From Chloroflexota bacterium (GTDB lineage Bacteria; Chloroflexota; JAJPGV01), in NCBI GenBank assembly GCA_021325635.1, contig JAJPGV010000049.1, positions 62,001 to 126,000 of the forward strand: a stretch of DNA of 64,000 nucleotides, given 5' to 3'. The position numbers and the translations under genes are program-made. Under the pieces are notes generated by a model. That model did no database searches and was not told where the DNA came from. It saw only the letters and a program-made list of their open reading frames with translations. Shown in pieces: positions 33,661-44,209 of the stretch. How positions within the stretch are numbered: position 1 is the first letter of the stretch; every line of letters starts with the position of its first letter.

Positions 33661-34272
33661 GTGGCCCGCATCGATCGCGCCGAGAAGGCGGCTCGCCTCA
33701 CGGGCATTGTCCCCGCCGCGGCGGCGAGTGCTATGGCGCTGCGCGGACTGGCGGCAGCCCGCCAGCAGCCGGTTGGTCGGACCACTGGCACGCCGTATCG
33801 CCGCATTCCCCTGATCGTGTACCTCGTCGCTGGCAGCATCTACACCGGCCTGAGCGTCAAGGGCTGGCGTCCTGTGCCGGTGCGCCTGCCCACCTGGGCT
33901 CGATGCCTGTGCACCGTCGCCGGCCTATCGCTCTACAGCGCCGGGATGGGCTTCGTCTTCTCCGGGCGATTGGCGCTTGGCAGGATGTACAACCTGTCGT
34001 CGGCGACCGGCGCTGAGCTGTTCGCCAACCATCAGCTGGTGACCACGGGTCCGTTCCGCTGGGTGCGCCACCCGATGTATTTCGGAGCCCTCCTGGCGGG
34101 CGCCGGGGCCCTGCTGCTCTACCGGACGTGGACTATGGTCTTCATCTGTCTGCACTTGCCGGTCTTCTGTATCCGCGCGCGCCGCGAGGAGGAAGTGCTC
34201 GAGCAGGAGTTCGGTGACGAGTGGCGTAAGTACCGGGCACAGGTGCCCGCCGGTGTGCCCGGCCTGCCCTAG
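33661..34272 (+). CDS. ICMT/PEMT-type membrane methyltransferase (left copy, intact)
   Basis: 203 residues with four hydrophobic segments and the C-terminal signature of isoprenylcysteine carboxyl-methyltransferase-like proteins: TTGPFRWVRHPMYFGALLAGAG and EEEVLEQEFGDEWRKYRAQVP. It would methylate a lipid or small hydrophobic acceptor using SAM; bacterial substrates are mostly unknown. From 33702 it is the intact member of a duplicated pair; the copy at 43096 has two frame-breaking deletions. Its stop shares one base with the next GTG. Confidence 0.82.
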   Translation: MARIDRAEKAARLTGIVPAAAASAMALRGLAAARQQPVGRTTGTPYRRIPLIVYLVAGSIYTGLSVKGWRPVPVRLPTWARCLCTVAGLSLYSAGMGFVFSGRLALGRMYNLSSATGAELFANHQLVTTGPFRWVRHPMYFGALLAGAGALLLYRTWTMVFICLHLPVFCIRARREEEVLEQEFGDEWRKYRAQVPAGVPGLP

Positions 34273-34676
34273 TGCCCAGCCAACTCACTCATGCTGACAA
34301 CCCGTCGCATGCCTCGTTCTCAGCGCCTCGGCGTCGGTCGATCGGCATCAGGCTGCTGGCCATCGAGAAAGCTCTTGGCGCGTGCTTTTTCCTGGCGGCC
34401 GCCACCACCCTGGCTAGTGCTGCAGGCCCGGAACGTCACGCATCCACTGCAGGTCCTTTTGCCGGGGAGCTGCGGGAAGACCCGCATGACGCTCCGGCAA
34501 ACCTGCTCATCGGCTTTCTGCCACAGGTCAGCACGACCGCGCTGCTGACGCTCGGCCTCGTCGCCCTGGGCGACATGCTTCTGCACGCCATCGAGGCCGC
34601 CGGACTGTGGCTCGGGCAACTGTGGGTCGAATACCTCATCCTGATCGAGACGGCCGGCCTCCTGCCTTACGAGGCC
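33702..34676 (+). repeat. Left copy of a duplicated ICMT-DUF2127 gene pair
   Basis: This 975-bp segment aligns along its whole length with 43096-44068 (973 bp), same strand. Similarity begins at GGG(C/T)ATTGTCCCCGCC and stops sharply after GAGGCC at 34671-34676. The length difference equals the two deletions in the right methyltransferase copy. It carries many substitutions, so the duplication is not recent. Confidence 0.85.
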
Positions 34677-35012
34677 ATCCGCAATCTCCTGCAGCAGGTA
34701 CTGGCGGAGGCCGGACATGAGGTCGACAGCGCGCCCGACAGCTTGAGCGCCATGGACCAGGTGCGCTTCCAGGCGCCGGACTTGATTGTGCTCGACCTGT
34801 TCACGCCGCGAATGGATGGCTGGGAATTCCTCAATGTGACGCGCACTTCAGCTGCTTGCCAGAAGGTGCCGGTGGTGGTGGTCACCGCCAGCGACCAACT
34901 GCCGAGCGATCGGCGCATTCGTGCCGTTATCAAGAAGCCCTTCGACCTGTCGCTGCTGACCGCGACCGTGGACAGCCTGCTGCACACACCGGCCACTCAG
35001 CTGGTCGTGTAA
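34272..35012 (+). pseudogene. Chimera: broken DUF2127 fused to a headless receiver
   Basis: 246 codons. The first 135 follow the DUF2127 membrane protein at 43664. A +1 insertion near 34404 and a -1 deletion near 34450 scramble about 16 residues, and the protein's last two helices are missing. At GAGGCC (34671-34676) the frame joins a response-regulator receiver that lacks its first strand and acidic cluster: EAIRNLLQQVLAEAGHEV, then Asp in IVLDLFTP, VVVVTASD, and Lys in IKKPFD. The open frame could be translated, but neither half looks functional. The GTG start overlaps the methyltransferase stop by one base. Confidence 0.8.
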
Positions 35013-35240
35013 GGGTGGTGCGCCCGTTCCGAGGCGTGGGCTCTTGCATGGGACCGGCGCCTTCCGCAGCCCGGGTCGGCCACTCTCGACGATGGGCGTG
35101 CTTGCGGGTTCCGCCCAAGCGCGAGCTGTGGGAGGATCTGCCCGGTTGAAGGCTCAGGGCATGACAGCCACCACGCCTACCCGCCTCGCATCAATCGCAC
35201 AAGGCGTCTTGCGAGGACTCACGGCGGACGCCGCAACGAT

Positions 35241-36053
35241 TTGAACGTGCGGGTCTTCGCCGCGACCACCGGCGTACCGGAAGCTGGGCGGAACCCTGCC
35301 GCGGGGTTTGCCGGCGGCACCCTCATCGGAGCGCTCGTTGGCCTCGGCGGGGCCGAATTTCGCCTGCCGCTATTGGTCGGCGCATTTCGTTTCGCCACCC
35401 TAGAAGCGGTGATCCTCAACAAAGCCATGAGCCTGATCGTCGTCACGACCGCACTCCCGTTCCGAGCCACGGCCGTGTCGTTTGGCGCGCTGGCCGGACT
35501 CTGGCCGGTGATTGTGAACCTCCTAGCTGGCACTGTAGTAGGTGCCTGGATGGGAGCAAGCGGGGCGACGAAACTCAAAGCTCAAACGCTTAATCGCGTC
35601 ATCGCTATCCTGCTCGTAGGGATTGCGGCCGTGCTGCTGCTCGGCCATTCGGCGGAGCAGTCGCAGCCGCTGCTATCAGGTCCCGCACAAGCAATCGCTG
35701 GCGTGCTGGCCGGAGTCGGGATTGGCGCCGTTGCGGCACTCATGGGCGTGGCCGGCGGCGAACTGCTCATCCCCACGCTCGTGATTCTGTTCGGTGTTGA
35801 CGTCAAGCTGGCGGGCAGCGTCTCCCTGGCGATCAGCCTTCCCACGATGCTGGTCGCATTTGCCCGCTACAGCCAGGACCAGAGCTTCGTAGTGTTGAAG
35901 CAGAATCTCAACTTCGTCGTTGTCATGGGACTCGGCTCCATTCTGGGAACATTTCTTGGCGGCCAGCTGCTACGCTGGGCGCCGGCAACCATCCTGCTGC
36001 CTGCACTCGCCGTCATCCTCCTGCTTTCGGCCTGGAAGATGTGGAGGCATTAG
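35241..36053 (+). CDS. TSUP family (TauE/SafE) membrane permease
   Basis: 270 residues with eight hydrophobic helices and the two-repeat TSUP pattern: FAGGTLIGALVGLGGAEFRLPLL in the first half and VLAGVGIGAVAALMGVAGGELLIPTLVILFGVD in the second. TSUP proteins move sulfite, thiosulfate, sulfonates or related anions. The start is a TTG (35241) or GTG (35247). It is the first gene of an island with a metal-sensor regulator, DUF169 and an Fe-S carrier, so a sulfur-compound role is plausible. Confidence 0.85.
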   Translation: MNVRVFAATTGVPEAGRNPAAGFAGGTLIGALVGLGGAEFRLPLLVGAFRFATLEAVILNKAMSLIVVTTALPFRATAVSFGALAGLWPVIVNLLAGTVVGAWMGASGATKLKAQTLNRVIAILLVGIAAVLLLGHSAEQSQPLLSGPAQAIAGVLAGVGIGAVAALMGVAGGELLIPTLVILFGVDVKLAGSVSLAISLPTMLVAFARYSQDQSFVVLKQNLNFVVVMGLGSILGTFLGGQLLRWAPATILLPALAVILLLSAWKMWRH

Positions 36054-36241
36054 TAACCAAGTCCTCTTCACACGGACACCGTAGGCAGCGCTAGGCTGCT
36101 CGTCCAGGACGCCTCCACGAACTCTTTGCCCGCGAGTTCGCTCCTGATTCGGAGACCCATTGAAGTCATGTCTAGCAGAGGAGCCGCCGCTCCTCTCGTC
36201 TGGCAGCTGACACGCAGCCGCACGTCTGGCAGTCACCTGCG

Positions 36242-36484
36242 ATGTCCGGTGCGCCGCCAGTGCGCTTCATAGATGAGCAAGTCCATGTCGTTACCGAAAC
36301 GACTGTGTACAGCCTTGACGAATCCACGTTGTTGCGACGTCGGCTGAGACCATTACCCGATGGAGGCATGGCGGCGGAAGCCAACGTGGTACGGGAGTGG
36401 AGACGCCGGCGTCATCATCCGCTCTGCGAGGCGTGTCAGCGCCTGACTTCTACGGCTCACGCCGGATCTCTGCGCCCTGGTTGA
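36242..36484 (+). CDS. Uncertain small protein (80 aa)
   Basis: An ATG frame beginning MSGAPPVRFIDEQVHVVTET, then an Arg-rich second half with one CEAC. There is no good Shine-Dalgarno and no known family. It fills most of the 470-bp gap between the TSUP permease and the fused regulator; the rest of that gap (36054-36241, 36485-36525) shows no feature. Confidence 0.3.
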   Translation: MSGAPPVRFIDEQVHVVTETTVYSLDESTLLRRRLRPLPDGGMAAEANVVREWRRRRHHPLCEACQRLTSTAHAGSLRPG

Positions 36485-36525
36485 AAGCCCGGGCTCTCAA
36501 CCAAGGGGGTGTTAATCTCGGCCAC

Positions 36526-37437
36526 ATGGCGATGGGCCACCGGCTTCAACCAGGCCACGAACGTCAGAGTGACCTGGGCAGCCAACCGTCGGCTTCGGAT
36601 GCCGAGGTCAGGTTCTTCCAAGGACTGAGCGACGGTACTCGCCTGCAGATGCTCAAGCTGTTGCTCGACCATGGCGAGCAGTCGGTGTCTGGTTTTGAAA
36701 CTTCGCTCGGCCTTCCTCGGACGAGGGTTTCCCTTCACCTAGCCTGTCTCAAATCGTGTGGTTACGTCGCCGCCCGAAGGGAAGGCCGTTTCGTGTACTA
36801 CCGGCTAGCCGACGAGCGCGTCAGGCAGATACTGCGTCTCGCGCGGAGCGTCAGCGATGAGCACTGCGTGGCACTGGCGGCGTGTCCCACCATTGAGGGG
36901 CGCCGCCAGGTCGAGCATTCGAACGCAGCGAGCGAACCAGCGACCATCCCCCTAATGGAGGCTGACGGGACGTGCTGCTGCCAAGAGGACGCGCGAGACA
37001 ACGGCGTGTCTGCTGAGGCCAATCTCGCCTTCGGGCCGTGGCTTCACCGACGCCTCGTTGGACGTGGTCTCACGCCTGCAGAACTTGCAACAGCGTTGGG
37101 CGTGAGCACGTCGGCTGTGCGGCGCTGGCTGCTGCGCGGCGGCTATCCGTCGCCCGAGCTGCGATCGCGCCTTGCGGAGGTCTTGGGCGTCTCAGCGGAG
37201 GAGGTCCGTAAACGTGTTCGGGCCTTCCCATCGCCTGCGCTATCGCCGTTCGCCGCATGGCTCGACGTCGAAATTCACGCCAGAGACTGGACGCGGGCCG
37301 AGCTGGCGCGACGACTGGGACTGGCGCAGCACTCGGTCACAGCCTGGTTTTCGCGAGGCTTGCGACCACGGCGGTCCACGCGGCTCCGCCTGGCAAACGT
37401 GCTGCACATAGCTGTGGGGCAAATCCCGGGAAACTAG
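36526..37437 (+). CDS. CmtR-like metal sensor fused to two helix-turn-helix domains
   Basis: 303 residues from ATG 36526. Residues 25-115 are an ArsR-type winged helix with the CmtR Cd/Pb site: Cys74 and Cys78 in the recognition helix (HLACLKSCGYV) and Cys114 after the dimer helix (DEHCVALAAC). A Cys-rich linker with Cys150-152 follows (GTCCCQED). Two XRE-like helix-turn-helix units come next (about 168-232 and 240-302), each with an LA..LG(V/L) core. This architecture is not one I know. It probably represses or senses for the surrounding island; the target is unproven. Confidence 0.82.
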   Translation: MAMGHRLQPGHERQSDLGSQPSASDAEVRFFQGLSDGTRLQMLKLLLDHGEQSVSGFETSLGLPRTRVSLHLACLKSCGYVAARREGRFVYYRLADERVRQILRLARSVSDEHCVALAACPTIEGRRQVEHSNAASEPATIPLMEADGTCCCQEDARDNGVSAEANLAFGPWLHRRLVGRGLTPAELATALGVSTSAVRRWLLRGGYPSPELRSRLAEVLGVSAEEVRKRVRAFPSPALSPFAAWLDVEIHARDWTRAELARRLGLAQHSVTAWFSRGLRPRRSTRLRLANVLHIAVGQIPGN

Positions 37438-37483
37438 CTGGGCTAGCACCGCCGCTCGCACTGTTCGGCGGACCCACCGCGCG

Positions 37484-37511
37484 CTGACAAATTATTCCAG
37501 AGGCGCTTATC
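37484..37511 (+). promoter_or_regulatory. Promoter candidate for DUF169 gene
   Basis: CTGACA (37484-37489), a 16-bp spacer, then CTTATC (37506-37511) in an AT-richer stretch 23 bp before ATG 37534. A CATACATACT repeat follows the -10 box and might be an operator for the regulator encoded just upstream. Confidence 0.45.
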
Positions 37512-37533
37512 CCGAAACATACATACTGCTACC

Positions 37534-38343
37534 ATGTCCGCAGATAGGAACAACAGTAGCCGTAATGTCCAGCTTCGCCTGGGTGAGAAAGAAGAGCAGT
37601 TGGCGACGAACCAAGAACTCGCGACCCTCCTGACCGAATCCCTGAAACTCGAGACGCCCCCAGTGGCTGTGCGGTTCGTGACTGAACGGCCGGCGGGTGT
37701 GCGTGTGTTCCAGGGCGAAGTGCCCTCGGCCTGCACCTTCTGGCGGCGAGCCGAGCACGAGACCTTCTATGCCGACACACCCTCGCACTTCAACTGCCTC
37801 GTCGGTGCCCACACTATGGGCCTCGACATCCCTCCGGCGAAGGGGCAGGAGCTCATGGAGCTGGTGGGCCAGATGCACGCCAATGAGTATTTGGACCCGG
37901 CTGAGGTCGCCCACATTCCGACTGTTCCAGGAGCGAAGAGTGGCATCGTCTACGGTCCGGTCGCAGACACGCAAGAGGCGCCGGACGTTGTGCTCGTTTG
38001 GGTTGCACCCTATCAAGCCATGCTGCTGCAGGAAGCCACCGGTGGATCGGTCTGGAGCGAGCACTCCGGGGTGCCCACGTTTGGGCGGCCGTCGTGTGCC
38101 GCGATCCCGGCAGCCATCGCGCAGGCGCGGGCCACCCAGTCGCTCGGCTGCATGGGTATGCGGGTGTTCACCGAAGTCGGCCGCGACCAGCTCCTGGGCG
38201 TGCTGCCGAAGCTGCTTCTGGAGAAGCTCTCACCAGAATTGGAGCGCGTTGCTCGCGCGAACGACAAGATGACCCAGCACTATCGTGGGCAAAAAGCCAT
38301 CCATACGCGGGAGCAAGGGGCAACCGCGTCGGCGGGAGCCTGA
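37534..38343 (+). CDS. DUF169 family protein
   Basis: 269 residues: PPVAVRFVTERPAGV near the N-terminus, ACTFWRRAEHETFYADTPSHF, FNCLVGAHTMGLD, and RPSCAAIPAAIAQARATQSLGCMGMR. These are the conserved Cys-containing segments of DUF169. Four conserved Cys suggest a metal or Fe-S centre, but the family is uncharacterised. It lies between the fused metal sensor and the IscA-type gene, about 65 bp before the latter, so the two probably form one operon. Confidence 0.85.
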   Translation: MSADRNNSSRNVQLRLGEKEEQLATNQELATLLTESLKLETPPVAVRFVTERPAGVRVFQGEVPSACTFWRRAEHETFYADTPSHFNCLVGAHTMGLDIPPAKGQELMELVGQMHANEYLDPAEVAHIPTVPGAKSGIVYGPVADTQEAPDVVLVWVAPYQAMLLQEATGGSVWSEHSGVPTFGRPSCAAIPAAIAQARATQSLGCMGMRVFTEVGRDQLLGVLPKLLLEKLSPELERVARANDKMTQHYRGQKAIHTREQGATASAGA

Positions 38344-38409
38344 GGACTCCGAACTCAGAAAACAACGGCGATGTGACCCAAGAATCCGGAAAGGACTTGC
38401 TACATCTGA

Positions 38410-38808
38410 ATGGAAGCAATCACCGCAACCAACATCGTGCTCACCGCGTCGGCCGCGGAAAAGGTCAACGAACTGCTGGACAAAGAGGGCCTGCGCGGCC
38501 AGAAGCATCTGCGGATCTTTGTGCAGGGCGGGGGCTGCGCAGGCTTCTCGTACGGGATGGCCTTTGACGACGCCGACGAAGCTTCAGGCGATCTGGTCCT
38601 GCAAAGCAACGGGACTATCGTGATTATCGACAGCGCCAGCGCGTCCTACCTCAATGGCGCCGAGATCGACTACGTGGACGGCCTCATGGGGCAAGGCTTC
38701 ACCTTCGCCAACCCGAACGCAAAAGGCGGCTGCGCCTGTGGTCATTCCTTCAGCACCGAGAGCTCGGACGTTCAGTCCGGTGGCTGTGCATCAGGACACC
38801 AGCACTAA
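38410..38808 (+). CDS. HesB/IscA-type iron-sulfur cluster assembly protein
   Basis: 132 residues with the A-type carrier pattern: first Cys43 in VQGGGCAGFSYGM and the C-terminal pair Cys108/Cys110 in KGGCACGHSF. A longer tail than usual adds GGCASGHQH, giving an extra Cys and two His. It carries or delivers Fe-S clusters. AAAGGA lies upstream of ATG 38410. Its client could be the DUF169 protein next to it (inference). Confidence 0.9.
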   Translation: MEAITATNIVLTASAAEKVNELLDKEGLRGQKHLRIFVQGGGCAGFSYGMAFDDADEASGDLVLQSNGTIVIIDSASASYLNGAEIDYVDGLMGQGFTFANPNAKGGCACGHSFSTESSDVQSGGCASGHQH

Positions 38809-38857
38809 GGACATGATCGACCAGACGGTAGACCGCGAAAGCTGGATAGTTCACAAC

Positions 38858-38883
38858 AAATCCGACTGCTTAGATCGGATTTT
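38858..38883 (+). terminator. Hairpin with T-run after the Fe-S carrier gene
   Basis: AAATCCGA (38858-38865) pairs perfectly with TCGGATTT (38875-38882) around a 9-base loop, ending in TTTT. It is 50 bp past the IscA-type stop, where a terminator is expected, though the stem is modest. Confidence 0.45.
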
Positions 38884-38907
38884 GCTGGCAACTATGAGTG
38901 TGTCGCC

Positions 38908-39246
38908 ATGAAGGCGGCACTCACCACACTCGCCAAACCGTTTTATCTCGGGTTGATAGTCGTGGTCACAGTGCTGCTCACCTGGCTGTACTACACCTTC
39001 AGCTTGAGGTCGGCTGGCGAGCACACGACGATCTTCACCACGACGCTGGCTACACCAGCCTTCGAGATGAAGACGTTTGGCCCCGCATTCTTCTATGGTG
39101 GCGTTGCGCTCGACGTGGTTCTTGCCCTACTGACGGCAATTCTTTTGGCGCTCACCGTGGCCAGTCACCGATCACGAAAGAACGTTGTCACTGGCTCCGT
39201 AGCATCTGGCGCGACGGTGGCGGTAGCGATAGCGGCTTTTGGCTGA
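38908..39246 (+). CDS. Hypothetical three-helix membrane protein (112 aa)
   Basis: Hydrophobic helices at about residues 12-32 (YLGLIVVVTVLLTWLYYTF), 58-82 (FFYGGVALDVVLALLTAILL) and 92-112. No family recognised. ATG 38908 is overlapped (ATGA) by a 5-codon frame starting ATG 38894, which might couple translation. It is probably a membrane component of the sulfur/Fe-S island. Confidence 0.6.
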   Translation: MKAALTTLAKPFYLGLIVVVTVLLTWLYYTFSLRSAGEHTTIFTTTLATPAFEMKTFGPAFFYGGVALDVVLALLTAILLALTVASHRSRKNVVTGSVASGATVAVAIAAFG

Positions 39247-39276
39247 CCAACCTGCGTCATACCGATCGCTGGCACC

Positions 39277-39417
39277 GTGAGTGCCATGGTTATGGGCAGC
39301 GCCCTTCCCCTTTTAGGACTGGAATTCAAGCTTCTATCGCTCGTCGTTCTGGGCGTCGCGTTGGTGTGGCTCGTGCGGCGCCTGGAGGGTCTTCACCCCG
39401 CAATGGTGGCCAGGTAA
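39277..39417 (+). CDS. Possible small membrane protein (46 aa)
   Basis: GTG 39277 (or ATG 39286) to TAA 39417, one helix (LLSLVVLGVALVWLVRRLEG) with a basic flank, 30 bp after the preceding membrane gene. It is too short for family assignment; position and composition are the only support. Confidence 0.4.
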   Translation: MSAMVMGSALPLLGLEFKLLSLVVLGVALVWLVRRLEGLHPAMVAR

Positions 39418-39743
39418 TGCCAGGGACGAAGCGTCCGCTGTCCGCTGTTGGCGGGCCAACTCAGTCGACGACGTGTGGAATTTCCGCATCGTGTCCAGGG
39501 TCCTAACGAGTCTGCCAAACGATGCACGTATGGGTGGAACCGCGGCGGCACGCTGGCTAAGCGCCTCAAAAATGCAGCCGAGTAGACGTGGTCCTGGCCC
39601 TTCGCCGAGGCGGTTGCGGGCGGAAGCTGAGACACGCACGCTGATGGCCACGGCGATTTCGTCGGGCGATGCGAGTGGTGGTGGCCGTTATGTCCATCGG
39701 CTTGGCGCAGGCCACCTCGCGTACCGGACCTAACAGGCAATAA
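39418..39743. other. Gap without a supported gene
   Basis: Open frames here are Arg-rich or antisense in character with no ribosome-binding site. No repeat or hairpin was recognised. It ends at the in-frame stop (39741-39743) that precedes the beheaded regulator. Confidence 0.35.
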
Positions 39744-40205
39744 GGCTGTTCCCGGGTCCTCCCCGAGGCCGATAAGATTCGGGCACTCGATCTCGGCGCG
39801 GACGATTACCTGACAAAGCCGTTCGGCATCGGTGAGCTCATGGCCAGGATGCGCGCCGTGATGCGTCGGGTGCATGGAACTGGGCGCCGCGACCAGCGCC
39901 AGGACGTGCTCCAGGCTGGCGATGTGGTGGTCGACTTTGCGCAGCGCCGTGTGACCTTCAAGGCCGCCGCACTCAGGCTGACACCAACCGAGTACACGCT
40001 GCTCGAGGAGCTCGTCACCCACGCTGACCAGGTTTTCAGCCGCAGCGAGCTGCTCGCCAGCGTGTGGGGCGACGAGTACCGGGATGACCCCGACTATCTG
40101 CGGGTGTCGATGGGTCGCTTGCGACGCAAACTGGAGGACGACCCGGCGAATCCGACCAGGCTTCTGTCCGAGCCAGGCGTAGGCTACCGCTTCAAGCTGA
40201 ACTGA
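39744..40205 (+). pseudogene. 5'-truncated OmpR/KdpE-type response regulator
   Basis: The frame picks up in the middle of a receiver domain (EADKIRALDLGADDYLTKPFG), immediately after unrelated sequence with an in-frame stop and no start codon, so the first three quarters of the receiver are gone. The winged-helix DNA-binding domain is intact (LRLTPTEYTLLEELVTHADQVFSRSELLASVWG through EPGVGYRFKLN). Translation from ATG 39840 would give a receiver-less DNA-binding protein of 121 residues. No sensor kinase or kdp genes are nearby. Confidence 0.75.
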
Positions 40206-40253
40206 TTTCCTCGCTGTTCTCAGTGCGACTCAACGCTTCGGACGAAGCGCTCC

Positions 40254-40281
40254 TTTACGTCACGCACCGCCAGCTTTTATG
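40254..40281 (+). promoter_or_regulatory. Promoter candidate upstream of zinc-ribbon gene
   Basis: TTTACG (40254-40259), a 16-bp spacer, then TTTATG (40276-40281), about 110 bp before GTG 40392. Confidence 0.35.
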
Positions 40282-40391
40282 CGGTGTTTATGAGGCCAGT
40301 CGCAAGCTGGCCGCACTCGACCCGTGGCGGCCGCCGGTTTCCCGGCAATCTGACACAGGTGGCCAAACGCGCGGGGAAAGGAGAGTGCCAC

Positions 40392-40595
40392 GTGACGTTC
40401 AAAGCCGACCTGCGGTGCATGATGTGTGGACACTTCCTGGGCGAAGTCACAGCGGACCGTGACGGGCAAGCCACGCGGGTGCGGGGCTTTGCTCCGGGGC
40501 CGCGGTTTCGTGGACTGGGCCATCAGGCTCCGCACCGTTGCGACAAGTGCGGCGGTTCGCTCATCTTCGATGAGATCGAGCAGGTAGCCGCGTAG
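40392..40595 (+). CDS. Small zinc-ribbon protein (67 aa)
   Basis: Two CxxC knuckles (CMMCGHF and CDKCGGSL) about 40 residues apart form a probable zinc ribbon; a short acidic helix follows. GTG 40392 has GGAGAG 8 bp upstream, which decides the start. No named family. It is in line with the next receiver-like gene. Confidence 0.6.
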   Translation: MTFKADLRCMMCGHFLGEVTADRDGQATRVRGFAPGPRFRGLGHQAPHRCDKCGGSLIFDEIEQVAA

Positions 40596-40764
40596 TCCGC
40601 TCCTTCGGCCGTGAGGGCCGGCGGGATTCCCTGGCTGACAGCTGGCTGCGCCGGGTGCAGCGGGCGCGGATATACCTCGCGTCGTGCTCGTGGCGCACAC
40701 GGAGCCGCTGGCGTGAGAAGCGTGCCGCGTACCAGCTCTTGCGGCACGTGGCCTGAGACGCCCT

Positions 40765-41454
40765 GTGGCTGCTGTTCTCGTCGCTGAGCCCGCGCCCGTC
40801 CACCTGTTGCTCATTAGTCGTGACAAGCAGGCCGCCAATGCCCTGAGCCACGAGCTCGAGCAGGACGGCTACCAGGTCGCCTGTCGGGTCTCCAGCCACG
40901 CCGCGTTCGCAACGGGCCTGGATCCGGAGCCAGACGTGGTCTTGCTGGATCCCGGGCGCCAGCTGTTGCCGGCCGAGACAGTAGTTGCCGCGATGCACCA
41001 GTACCTTGGCCGCGGCGTCCCGGTGCTCACCCTTCCCTCGATGGCCCGGTCAGACCTGATGGGCGTAGCCGGCGATGTCCGGGATCAGCTGGCGTCCATG
41101 GGGCTCGAGCGGAGGGCTGACGAGCCATGCAGCATCTTCCATTGCACTGGCGCCGGCGCAGCTGCTGTCGCGGCCGGACCCGAACCTATACCCACGCTGT
41201 CGCTGCATGCGGTGAGCCATGACGCCGGAGTCGTTTTACGGAGCGCTCACCAGACGATTGAAGACGCGAGGACCATCATCCGTACCGCCAAGCGACGCAT
41301 GGTCGCTTCTCGGACCACCGCTTATGGCGCCGTGCTGCTGATGAGCCGCCTGCTCCGTGATGACCTGGAGCGCGTCACGACCCTGGCCGGGGAACTCGAA
41401 CGCACGCAGCTGGCTCTAGGGCTACGACTGCTGTCAGAGAAGCCGGAGGAGTAG
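40765..41454 (+). CDS. Degenerate receiver-like protein
   Basis: 229 residues. Residues 10-120 resemble a receiver (HLLLISRDKQAANALSHELEQDGYQV, DVVLLDPGRQ, VPVLTLPSMAR), but the acidic cluster is SRD and no KP motif is visible. The C-terminal half has a helical region (residues 150-229, IEDARTIIRTAKRR, DDLERVTTLAGELERTQLAL) that could dimerise or bind a partner. A phosphorylation-independent signalling role is inferred. Confidence 0.6.
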   Translation: MAAVLVAEPAPVHLLLISRDKQAANALSHELEQDGYQVACRVSSHAAFATGLDPEPDVVLLDPGRQLLPAETVVAAMHQYLGRGVPVLTLPSMARSDLMGVAGDVRDQLASMGLERRADEPCSIFHCTGAGAAAVAAGPEPIPTLSLHAVSHDAGVVLRSAHQTIEDARTIIRTAKRRMVASRTTAYGAVLLMSRLLRDDLERVTTLAGELERTQLALGLRLLSEKPEE

Positions 41455-41822
41455 CCTCGCTAGTCCGCGGGTTCCGCCGAAGGGAAACCGCCGCGCGGCA
41501 GCCAGCTTGGCCCGGTTCGATGGCGGTAGCGGAGCACCAAGGAGCGCTGGTTCCGCGAGGTGACGGCCCGGCGCCTTGGCGTGACACGAGCTGAACGGGA
41601 CCTGAGGGCCAGGATCGCATTAAAGCGAGGGATGGCCTCGTCAGGCGAGGCGGCATAGGCGACCCATCCGGTCACCGATCGCCGCCCAGCCGCCCGGCAC
41701 GCGAACAAGGTCGGGCGCCGCCCCACGCGGCCCAAGCCTCACCCGAATGCGGCCTCGTCCCGCTTGCGCTGCTCCGTGGCTCTGAACCCAGCGCGTGTGA
41801 TCACCGGGAGCATGGGGTTGCG
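41455..41822. other. Gap without a supported gene
   Basis: Plus-strand sequence around 41560-41660 reads as a basic helix-rich fragment (ERWFREVTARRLGVTRAERD) ending in a stop, with no start or ribosome-binding site; it could be a gene remnant. Nothing else recognised. Confidence 0.35.
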
Positions 41823-42062
41823 TCAGGCCGCGAGCTCATCGGCCTCGCGTTTGGCCTGATTGGTCGACTGGCTGCGCTGGTACACCATGGATGCCTGTCT
41901 CGAGCCCACCAGGACCCATCCCAGCGCGGTTAGATGGGAGTCAGCCATGCGCTGCAGGTTCACAGCAGTATCAGAGTCAGCGCTAGCCAGCCCAGACTGC
42001 CCAAATTGAGCCGAGCCGCGACGAACCGGGATTCGCACGGGCCGCGTCAACGTTTGATTCAT
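41823..42062 (-). CDS. Small hypothetical protein (79 aa)
   Basis: ATG 42062 has AAGAGGAG about 12 bp upstream. The product is soluble (TAVNLQRMADSHLTALGWVLVGSRQASMVYQRS) with an Ala/Glu-rich end. No family recognised. Confidence 0.45.
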   Translation of the reverse strand: MNQTLTRPVRIPVRRGSAQFGQSGLASADSDTAVNLQRMADSHLTALGWVLVGSRQASMVYQRSQSTNQAKREADELAA

Positions 42063-42515
42063 CTAATCGGACACTCCTCTTGTCGTGGGTAACAGAAGAG
42101 GCTCGGACGTGCGCCTTGTCCAAGCCTCAAGTGGCGACCCGTACGCATGTCTGCGACGGTCACCGCTGCAGGATCCGAGCGGGCTTCTTTCTTTTCAGTC
42201 CGAGGCTGCCCTGTTCCTTGCTCTGTGCCGTTACTATGCGCTCGCCGAAGTAAAGCAGGACGGAATGGTGGCTAAATCTTCCGTAAACGCGGCCCAATCA
42301 TGCCCCGGAGGTGTCGGCACATGCCGGACGATCTCCTGGCACTCTCCGGTTTCCATCCAGCCCGGCGGGCTGGACCGCCGACGGCTGCGCGATTGACTGA
42401 GATCGGTGCGGCGAGGGCCCGCGACAACAAGCCAATTGACAGCCGCGCTGCGCAGAGGGAAACTGACGCTGGACGAGCGCCACTCAACAAGCGTCGAAAT
42501 AAGGAAGCTGGCTAA
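42063..42515. other. Gap without a supported gene
   Basis: 453 bp between a leftward small gene and a rightward one, so it should hold divergent promoters. On the minus strand TTTACG and TTTAGC occur five bases apart near 42275. No protein-like frame is convincing. Confidence 0.35.
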
Positions 42516-42869
42516 ATGCAAACTGATGGGCTCGATTCCTGGACGTGGTCAGGCGCGACGGCGCGACCAGTGTGGGTGCCGAACTCCGCCCCTGGACCGT
42601 GGATGTGGCTCTTGGCCGCGTGCATGCTTGCCAGCTTTCTCGCTTTACTGGTGATACTGATCGTCGACTGCCCGGACGCGATCAGTACGTTGGCTGGACG
42701 AGAGTTTCAACCCCTCATAGGTCGTCCGATAGGGTCACTTACTCCCAGAGAGATCGTATGCGTGCTTGCCGGGCTGCGGGAGCAGCCGACGCCAGGTCCG
42801 CCCGACTCCTCATCAGCTATCGCAAATAGTCTGCGTGCCGAGCTTAGGCGTTGGGAATGCCCCGTCTGA
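42516..42869 (+). CDS. Hypothetical one-helix membrane protein (117 aa)
   Basis: AAGGAAG precedes ATG 42516. A hydrophilic N-terminus is followed by a transmembrane helix (WMWLLAACMLASFLALLVILIV) and a C-terminal domain with a LTPREIVCVLAGLREQPT helix. No family recognised. It is close to the left edge of the right duplicated pair. Confidence 0.45.
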   Translation: MQTDGLDSWTWSGATARPVWVPNSAPGPWMWLLAACMLASFLALLVILIVDCPDAISTLAGREFQPLIGRPIGSLTPREIVCVLAGLREQPTPGPPDSSSAIANSLRAELRRWECPV

Positions 42870-43072
42870 CAAGCAAGGCTGCGATGCTGCTTTGCTCGCC
42901 GCATGCTCTCACCAGCCCTCCTCCTCGTTATCACCACTTCCCCACCAGCCGCCACCACCCACCCGCGCACTACAACAAGCCGAGGCGACTACTCGGCCAG
43001 CCGTGGAGGCTGCACTCCGAGACCGCAGCGAAGCGCGGCGTCAGCTAGCGAGCGGGCTGAGATGCCCGCCGC

Positions 43073-43664
43073 GTGGTCCGCCGAGAGACCCTAGCGGGTA
43101 TTGTCCCCGCCGCGGCGGCGAGTGTCATGGCGCTGCGCGGATTGGCGGCAGCCCGCCAGCAGCCGGTTGGCCGGACCACGGGCACGCCGTATCGCCGTAT
43201 TCCCTTGTTCGTGTATGTTGTCGCCGACACCATCTACACCGGACTCAGCGTCAAGGGCTGGCGTCCTGTGCCGTTGCGCTTGCCGGTCTGGGCTCGATGC
43301 CTGTGCGCCGGCGCCGGCCTATCCCTCTACAGCGCCGACATGGGCTTCTTTTCTCCGGGCGATTGGCATTGGGCAGCCTGTACACCTGTCGACAACGACT
43401 GGCGCCGAGCTATACGCCGAGCATCAACTGGTGACCACGGGTCCGTTCCGCTGGATGCGCCACCCGATGTACTTCGGCGCCTTGCTGGCCGGCGCCGGGG
43501 CGCTGCTTCTCTACCGGACGTGGACCATGGCCTTCATTTGCCTGCACTTGCCGATCTTCTGTATTCGGGCTCGTGGTGAGGAGGAGGTGCTCGAGCAGGA
43601 GTTCGGAGACGAGTGGCGCGCGTACCGGGCACGGGTGCCTGCCGGTGTGCCCGGCCTGGGCTAG
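43073..43664 (+). pseudogene. Frameshifted ICMT-type methyltransferase (right copy)
   Basis: Compared with the intact copy at 33661, one base is missing near 43350 (CTTCGTCTTCTCC became CTTCTTTTCTCC) and one near 43386 (TACAACC became TACACC). The protein continues in three successive frames: VPAAAASVMALRGL, then FSGRLALGSLYT, then TTGPFRWMRHPMYFGALLAG to the normal stop. The catalytic C-terminus is preserved but cut off from the start. It is a pseudogene unless the deletions are sequencing errors. Confidence 0.85.
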
Positions 43665-44068
43665 TGCCGAGACAACTCGGTCACGCCACTAATGCGTCGC
43701 AGGCCCCGTCCCTAGCGCCTCGTCGACGGTCGATCGGCATTAGCCTCCTGGCGATTGAAAAAGCCTGTGGCGCCTGCTTCTTCCAAGCCGCGGCCACCAC
43801 CCTGCTCGTGCTGCACGCCCGAAACGTCACGCATCCACTGCAGGTCCTGTTTGCCGCCGAGCTGCGCGAAGACCCGCACGACGCAGCGGCCAACCTGCTG
43901 ATCGGCTTTCTGCCCCAGGTCAGCACGACTGCGCTGCTGACGCTCGGCCTGGTCGCCCTGGGCGACATGCTGCTGCACGCCATCGAAGCCGCTGGACTGT
44001 GGCTCGGGCAACTATGGGTCGAGTACCTCATCCTGATCGAGACGGCCGGCCTCCTGCCCTACGAGGCC
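43096..44068 (+). repeat. Right copy of the duplicated ICMT-DUF2127 gene pair
   Basis: Homologous to 33702-34676 on the same strand. The right end of homology (GAGGCC, 44063-44068) lies inside an intact DUF2127 gene, so the left copy is the one interrupted there. The two copies bracket the rearranged 34.7-43.1 kb block. Confidence 0.85.
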
Positions 44069-44209
44069 TACGAGATCGTCCGTCACCTCACCCCATTCAA
44101 GCTACTGGCGTTCGGCATCAACCTCGTCATCGTCGCCTACCTGGCGCGGCGGCGGCTGCGGAGTAAATCGGCCCGTGCGGCGACCAAGCTGGCGTCGATG
44201 TCCGACTGA
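43664..44209 (+). CDS. DUF2127 membrane protein (right copy, intact)
   Basis: 181 residues with four hydrophobic helices: ISLLAIEKACGACFFQAAATTLLVL, ALLTLGLVALGDMLLHAIEAAGLWLG, LWVEYLILIETAGLLPYEAYEIVRHLTPFKLLAF, and a last helix before a basic tail. DUF2127 proteins are uncharacterised. GTG 43664 overlaps the stop of the methyltransferase frame by one base, the same arrangement as in the left copy. This is the only complete DUF2127 in the window. Confidence 0.85.
   Translation: MPRQLGHATNASQAPSLAPRRRSIGISLLAIEKACGACFFQAAATTLLVLHARNVTHPLQVLFAAELREDPHDAAANLLIGFLPQVSTTALLTLGLVALGDMLLHAIEAAGLWLGQLWVEYLILIETAGLLPYEAYEIVRHLTPFKLLAFGINLVIVAYLARRRLRSKSARAATKLASMSD

Follow-up and report, generated by a model that had tools for sequence, protein, structure and literature searches.

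The duplication-degeneration-complementation model describes complementary damage in two copies, and where such loss is what preserves the duplicates, it should come early. In bacteria, redundant copies are also lost late, after duplication or horizontal re-acquisition; of the E. coli transcription-factor paralogues most were acquired by horizontal transfer (PMC2395238). The literature consulted on DUF2127 and on similar situations had no bearing on the pair of loci described below.

We analysed a window of 64,000 nucleotides from a Chloroflexota draft genome (4.64 Mb, 63 contigs). BLAST comparison of the window with itself revealed direct repeats at 33701-34676 and 43095-44068, which are 86.9% identical over 977 aligned columns and are the only repeat of such strength in it; the homologous segments claimed in the original prediction are thus real. 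Each of the two units, lying 9.4 kb apart, consists of an ICMT/PEMT-type methyltransferase gene (MT) followed by a DUF2127 gene through a stop/start overlap, TAGTG, and both families were recognised by Pfam profiles. The features are as follows.

33661..34272, + strand: left MT, ICMT/PEMT-type, intact, 203 aa; PF04191, PF04140
34272..34676, + strand: left DUF2127, GTG start over the MT stop (TAGTG); PF09900, E 3.6e-19, profile positions 1-113 of 140
34412..34457, + strand: misread segment of left DUF2127, ~15 codons, bounded by the +1 and -1 indels
34677..35012, + strand: receiver part of the fusion; PF00072, E 1.1e-13, profile positions 9-110 of 111
43073..43664, + strand: right MT, frameshifted, matches divided between two frames; stop and DUF2127 start overlap in TAGTG
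43664..44209, + strand: right DUF2127, intact, 181 aa from GTG; PF09900, E 1.3e-30

The left MT has an open and family-like frame, as had been predicted. It scored above the curated cut-offs of PF04191 (49.7 bits against 25; E 5.5e-13) and PF04140 (43 bits against 24; E 6.1e-11), which places it among the ICMT/PEMT-type membrane methyltransferases, and an alignment with seven homologues from the phylum showed that its RHPMY and RARREEE..FG.EW motifs are conserved. The MT-family profile also matched the solved isoprenylcysteine methyltransferases 4a2n, 5v7p and 5vg9, with which the C-terminal region is shared. Unlike a protein-S-isoprenylcysteine O-methyltransferase proper, however, the left MT scored only 57.3 bits on NF040696, for which the NCBIfam equivalog cut-off is 160.

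In the right copy the MT carries two single-base deletions relative to the left one, at ~43348 and ~43383 (net -2), in agreement with the prediction. The reading frame thus changes between the N- and C-terminal halves, and the Pfam match is confined to the 3' half. The near-invariant residues G95, M109 and R175 of the family are altered, and the N-terminus is divergent as well, with several small gaps upstream of 43095 in the best local alignment. Programmed frameshifting was considered and rejected here; two separate shifts would be required, and no canonical slippery heptamer was seen by eye at 43348. The right DUF2127 frame is open and covers practically the whole profile (106.9 bits, positions 2-139 of 140), so it is intact, as stated originally.

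The right copy adjoins ~4 kb of poorly coding DNA that includes a truncated response-regulator gene. Across 39240-43070 (~3.8 kb) coding potential is low, except in two islands at 39.75-40.2 and 40.75-41.45 kb. At 39744-40205 we observed the remnant of an OmpR/KdpE-type response regulator that has a whole DNA-binding domain and only the last ~29 receiver positions, and no coding potential upstream of it. A frame of 229-245 aa at 40717-41454 had no Pfam match.

The left DUF2127 was proposed to have +1/-1 indels and a lost C-terminus. Both indels were found by alignment, +1 at 34412 and -1 after 34457, but they compensate each other and the family frame resumes behind them, so that the gene is not simply broken and only ~15 codons are misread. 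The C-terminus is indeed gone, the profile being matched at positions 1-113 of 140 only, but another sequence takes its place in frame. At 34676/34677 the resemblance to the right copy stops and the frame continues into a receiver domain, giving an ORF of 246 aa that is open throughout (34272-35012). Hydropathy analysis showed that the final hydrophobic membrane helix of DUF2127 is missing. The receiver is 53% identical to an intact 120-aa receiver gene on another contig (C24:167127-167432); compared with this paralogue it lacks the first ~12 residues, including the acidic pair, while the VLDLF phospho-acceptor region is kept, so the receiver of the fusion is incomplete. The simplest reading of the fusion is a deletion that would have joined two neighbouring genes in frame. 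The indel state of the left copy is derived, because the right copy shares the other state with a DUF2127 paralogue on contig C24 and with the family.

Taken by itself, the pair has one intact member of each kind and the lesions of its two copies are complementary. The statement that just one working member survives in each copy holds within the pair but not genome-wide, as two other intact DUF2127 genes are present on contigs C24 and C57 (61% and 31% identical), along with distant MT homologues. Given these genes, losing one copy of DUF2127 may be of no consequence to the cell. Outside the genome, the best MT matches were labelled Chloroflexi, and the nearest homologue in the MT-alignment scan was 50% identical. 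None of the 80 best MT loci of that scan, from a collection of 84,980 species, has DUF2127 adjoining MT, and the loci retrieved from 400 genomes of this phylum showed no such neighbours. A scan of a collection of genome contigs with the DUF2127 alignment returned no relative, the DNA-level search gave short weak matches only, and the plasmid search one weak partial match; the class-level search covered a single genome, this one. Another genome of the phylum (G080, contig C111) has two intact MT paralogues, L064 and L077, in opposite orientation and ~22 kb apart, with dS ~0.1.

We next consider the substitutions that separate the two copies. For MT, dS is 0.33 and dN 0.078 (dN/dS 0.235); for the DUF2127 core, dS is 0.385 and dN 0.021 (dN/dS 0.054), with 29 synonymous and 5 nonsynonymous changes. 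Third codon positions account for 33 of the 41 changes in DUF2127 (binomial p 8e-10) and for 42 of the 74 in MT (p 3e-5). The similar dS of the two genes is as expected for one shared origin. If branch lengths are equal and the neutral rate equals dS, at most ~11% of the left DUF2127 branch was unconstrained; taking the upper Poisson limit raises this bound to ~23%. Judged by similarity to homologues, the excess of changes in the right MT lineage is small (12 versus 8 differences). The largely synonymous substitutions indicate that constraint acted on both copies during most of the time since they separated, and that the lesions arose late. Both units would thus have been working genes during most of their separation and damaged only towards its end, an order and timing that we deduce from the substitution pattern. 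Late lesions fit better with two diverged copies, either old paralogues or a native and a re-acquired one, that recently became redundant.

The reading that we favour, with a probability of about 0.62, is the late and independent loss of redundant copies after a duplication or the re-acquisition of a diverged copy. The MT-DUF2127 unit with its TAGTG overlap is present twice, and both units would have been functional and under purifying selection during most of the divergence between them (dS ~0.33-0.39). Late in this history, two single-base deletions would have disabled the right MT and the left DUF2127 would have gained its compensated +1/-1 pair, and a deletion would have removed the last helix of the left DUF2127 together with the beginning of the receiver gene that followed it, producing the in-frame fusion. 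At present, MT is probably supplied by the left copy and DUF2127 by the right one, the damaged products being presumed inactive. The second copy may have come either from duplication within the lineage or from re-acquisition of a diverged homologue. The locus resembles bacterial late loss after duplication or horizontal re-acquisition in having two homologous copies in one genome, with small indels and a deletion-fusion; it differs in that the lesions hit different genes and neither copy has been lost whole. The altered near-invariant residues of the right MT and the poorly coding surroundings of the right copy also favour late loss. Three points speak against it: the left frame, open for 246 codons, could mean a maintained gene; the two tight lesion clusters could come from an assembly fault; and none of the relatives found shows the ancestral state.

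Assembly or consensus errors might account for all four single-base indels or for some of them, in which case the right MT would be intact and only the DUF2127-receiver fusion on the left would be real. This would be consistent with the low dN/dS on both sides, with the grouping of the indels as two pairs in tight clusters of 35 and 45 bases, and with the draft state of the genome in its 63 contigs. As a yardstick for the background we used ~64 ABC_tran and 29 adh_short genes of the same genome (~44 kb of domain sequence). One gene of each family was found to be split across frames, a background that is not zero and also favours error, amounting to 2 frameshifts in ~93 genes. The split genes, both outside the window, are an ABC transporter (G000:C56:92233-92684) and a short-chain dehydrogenase (G000:C16:51443-52008), and may be either pseudogenes or assembly errors themselves. 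At this rate, however, 0.09 indels are expected in 1.95 kb where four are seen; the probability of four or more is 2.5e-6, and it rises to 0.004 when each cluster is taken as one event. Neither value includes a correction for the selection of this region from 64 kb. Moreover, no long homopolymer is present at any of the four sites. Assembly error is improbable as a general explanation, and we regard the version in which the right MT is intact as unlikely too.

The original prediction explained the pair as subfunction partition by complementary loss following segmental duplication. On this reading, degenerative mutations of a complementary kind, arising shortly after the duplication, would have fixed both copies, one gene each. 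The retention of one intact gene per copy is what this would produce, and complementary damage is indeed common to the duplication-degeneration-complementation model and this pair. The timing, however, does not support it. Lesions responsible for keeping both copies would be early, whereas the damaged DUF2127 was under strong purifying selection over nearly all of the divergence (core dN/dS 0.054; unconstrained fraction at most 0.11-0.23), which makes the damage late. Furthermore, the damage strikes whole neighbouring genes and not separable parts of one gene, so that two independent losses, and no division of one gene's subfunctions, would be involved, and the genome holds other intact DUF2127 genes. 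We consider early partition improbable.

The ORF on the left could also be a new, selected fusion gene, a membrane anchor with a receiver, and not debris. Its 246 codons are open, its indels compensate, the fusion is in frame, its start overlaps the MT stop, and the coding potential of the DUF2127 frame runs on into the receiver. On the other hand, compensation (~1/2) and an in-frame junction (~1/3) by chance are not small probabilities. Receivers need the acidic pair for Mg2+ binding and phosphorylation; this one is without it, the last DUF2127 helix is gone as well, and a second example of the fusion was not found. A selected fusion is in our estimate less probable even than early partition. 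The more specific proposal, that deletion-fusion in a redundant copy created a working membrane-anchored, non-phosphorylatable receiver protein while the MT and DUF2127 functions became split over two loci, is the most doubtful of these readings. Recombination between the repeats, the other origin offered in the prediction, has nothing specific in its favour, the divergence being spread along the entire repeat with no mosaic pattern of identity in 75-base bins.

Returning to late loss, we conclude that the case is real but ordinary: redundant copies were probably lost one gene at a time, and one deletion gave an in-frame fusion. It contains no new mechanism. It is at best a minor example of bacteria resolving redundancy by gene rather than by copy, and of a deletion giving rise to an open fusion frame along the way.
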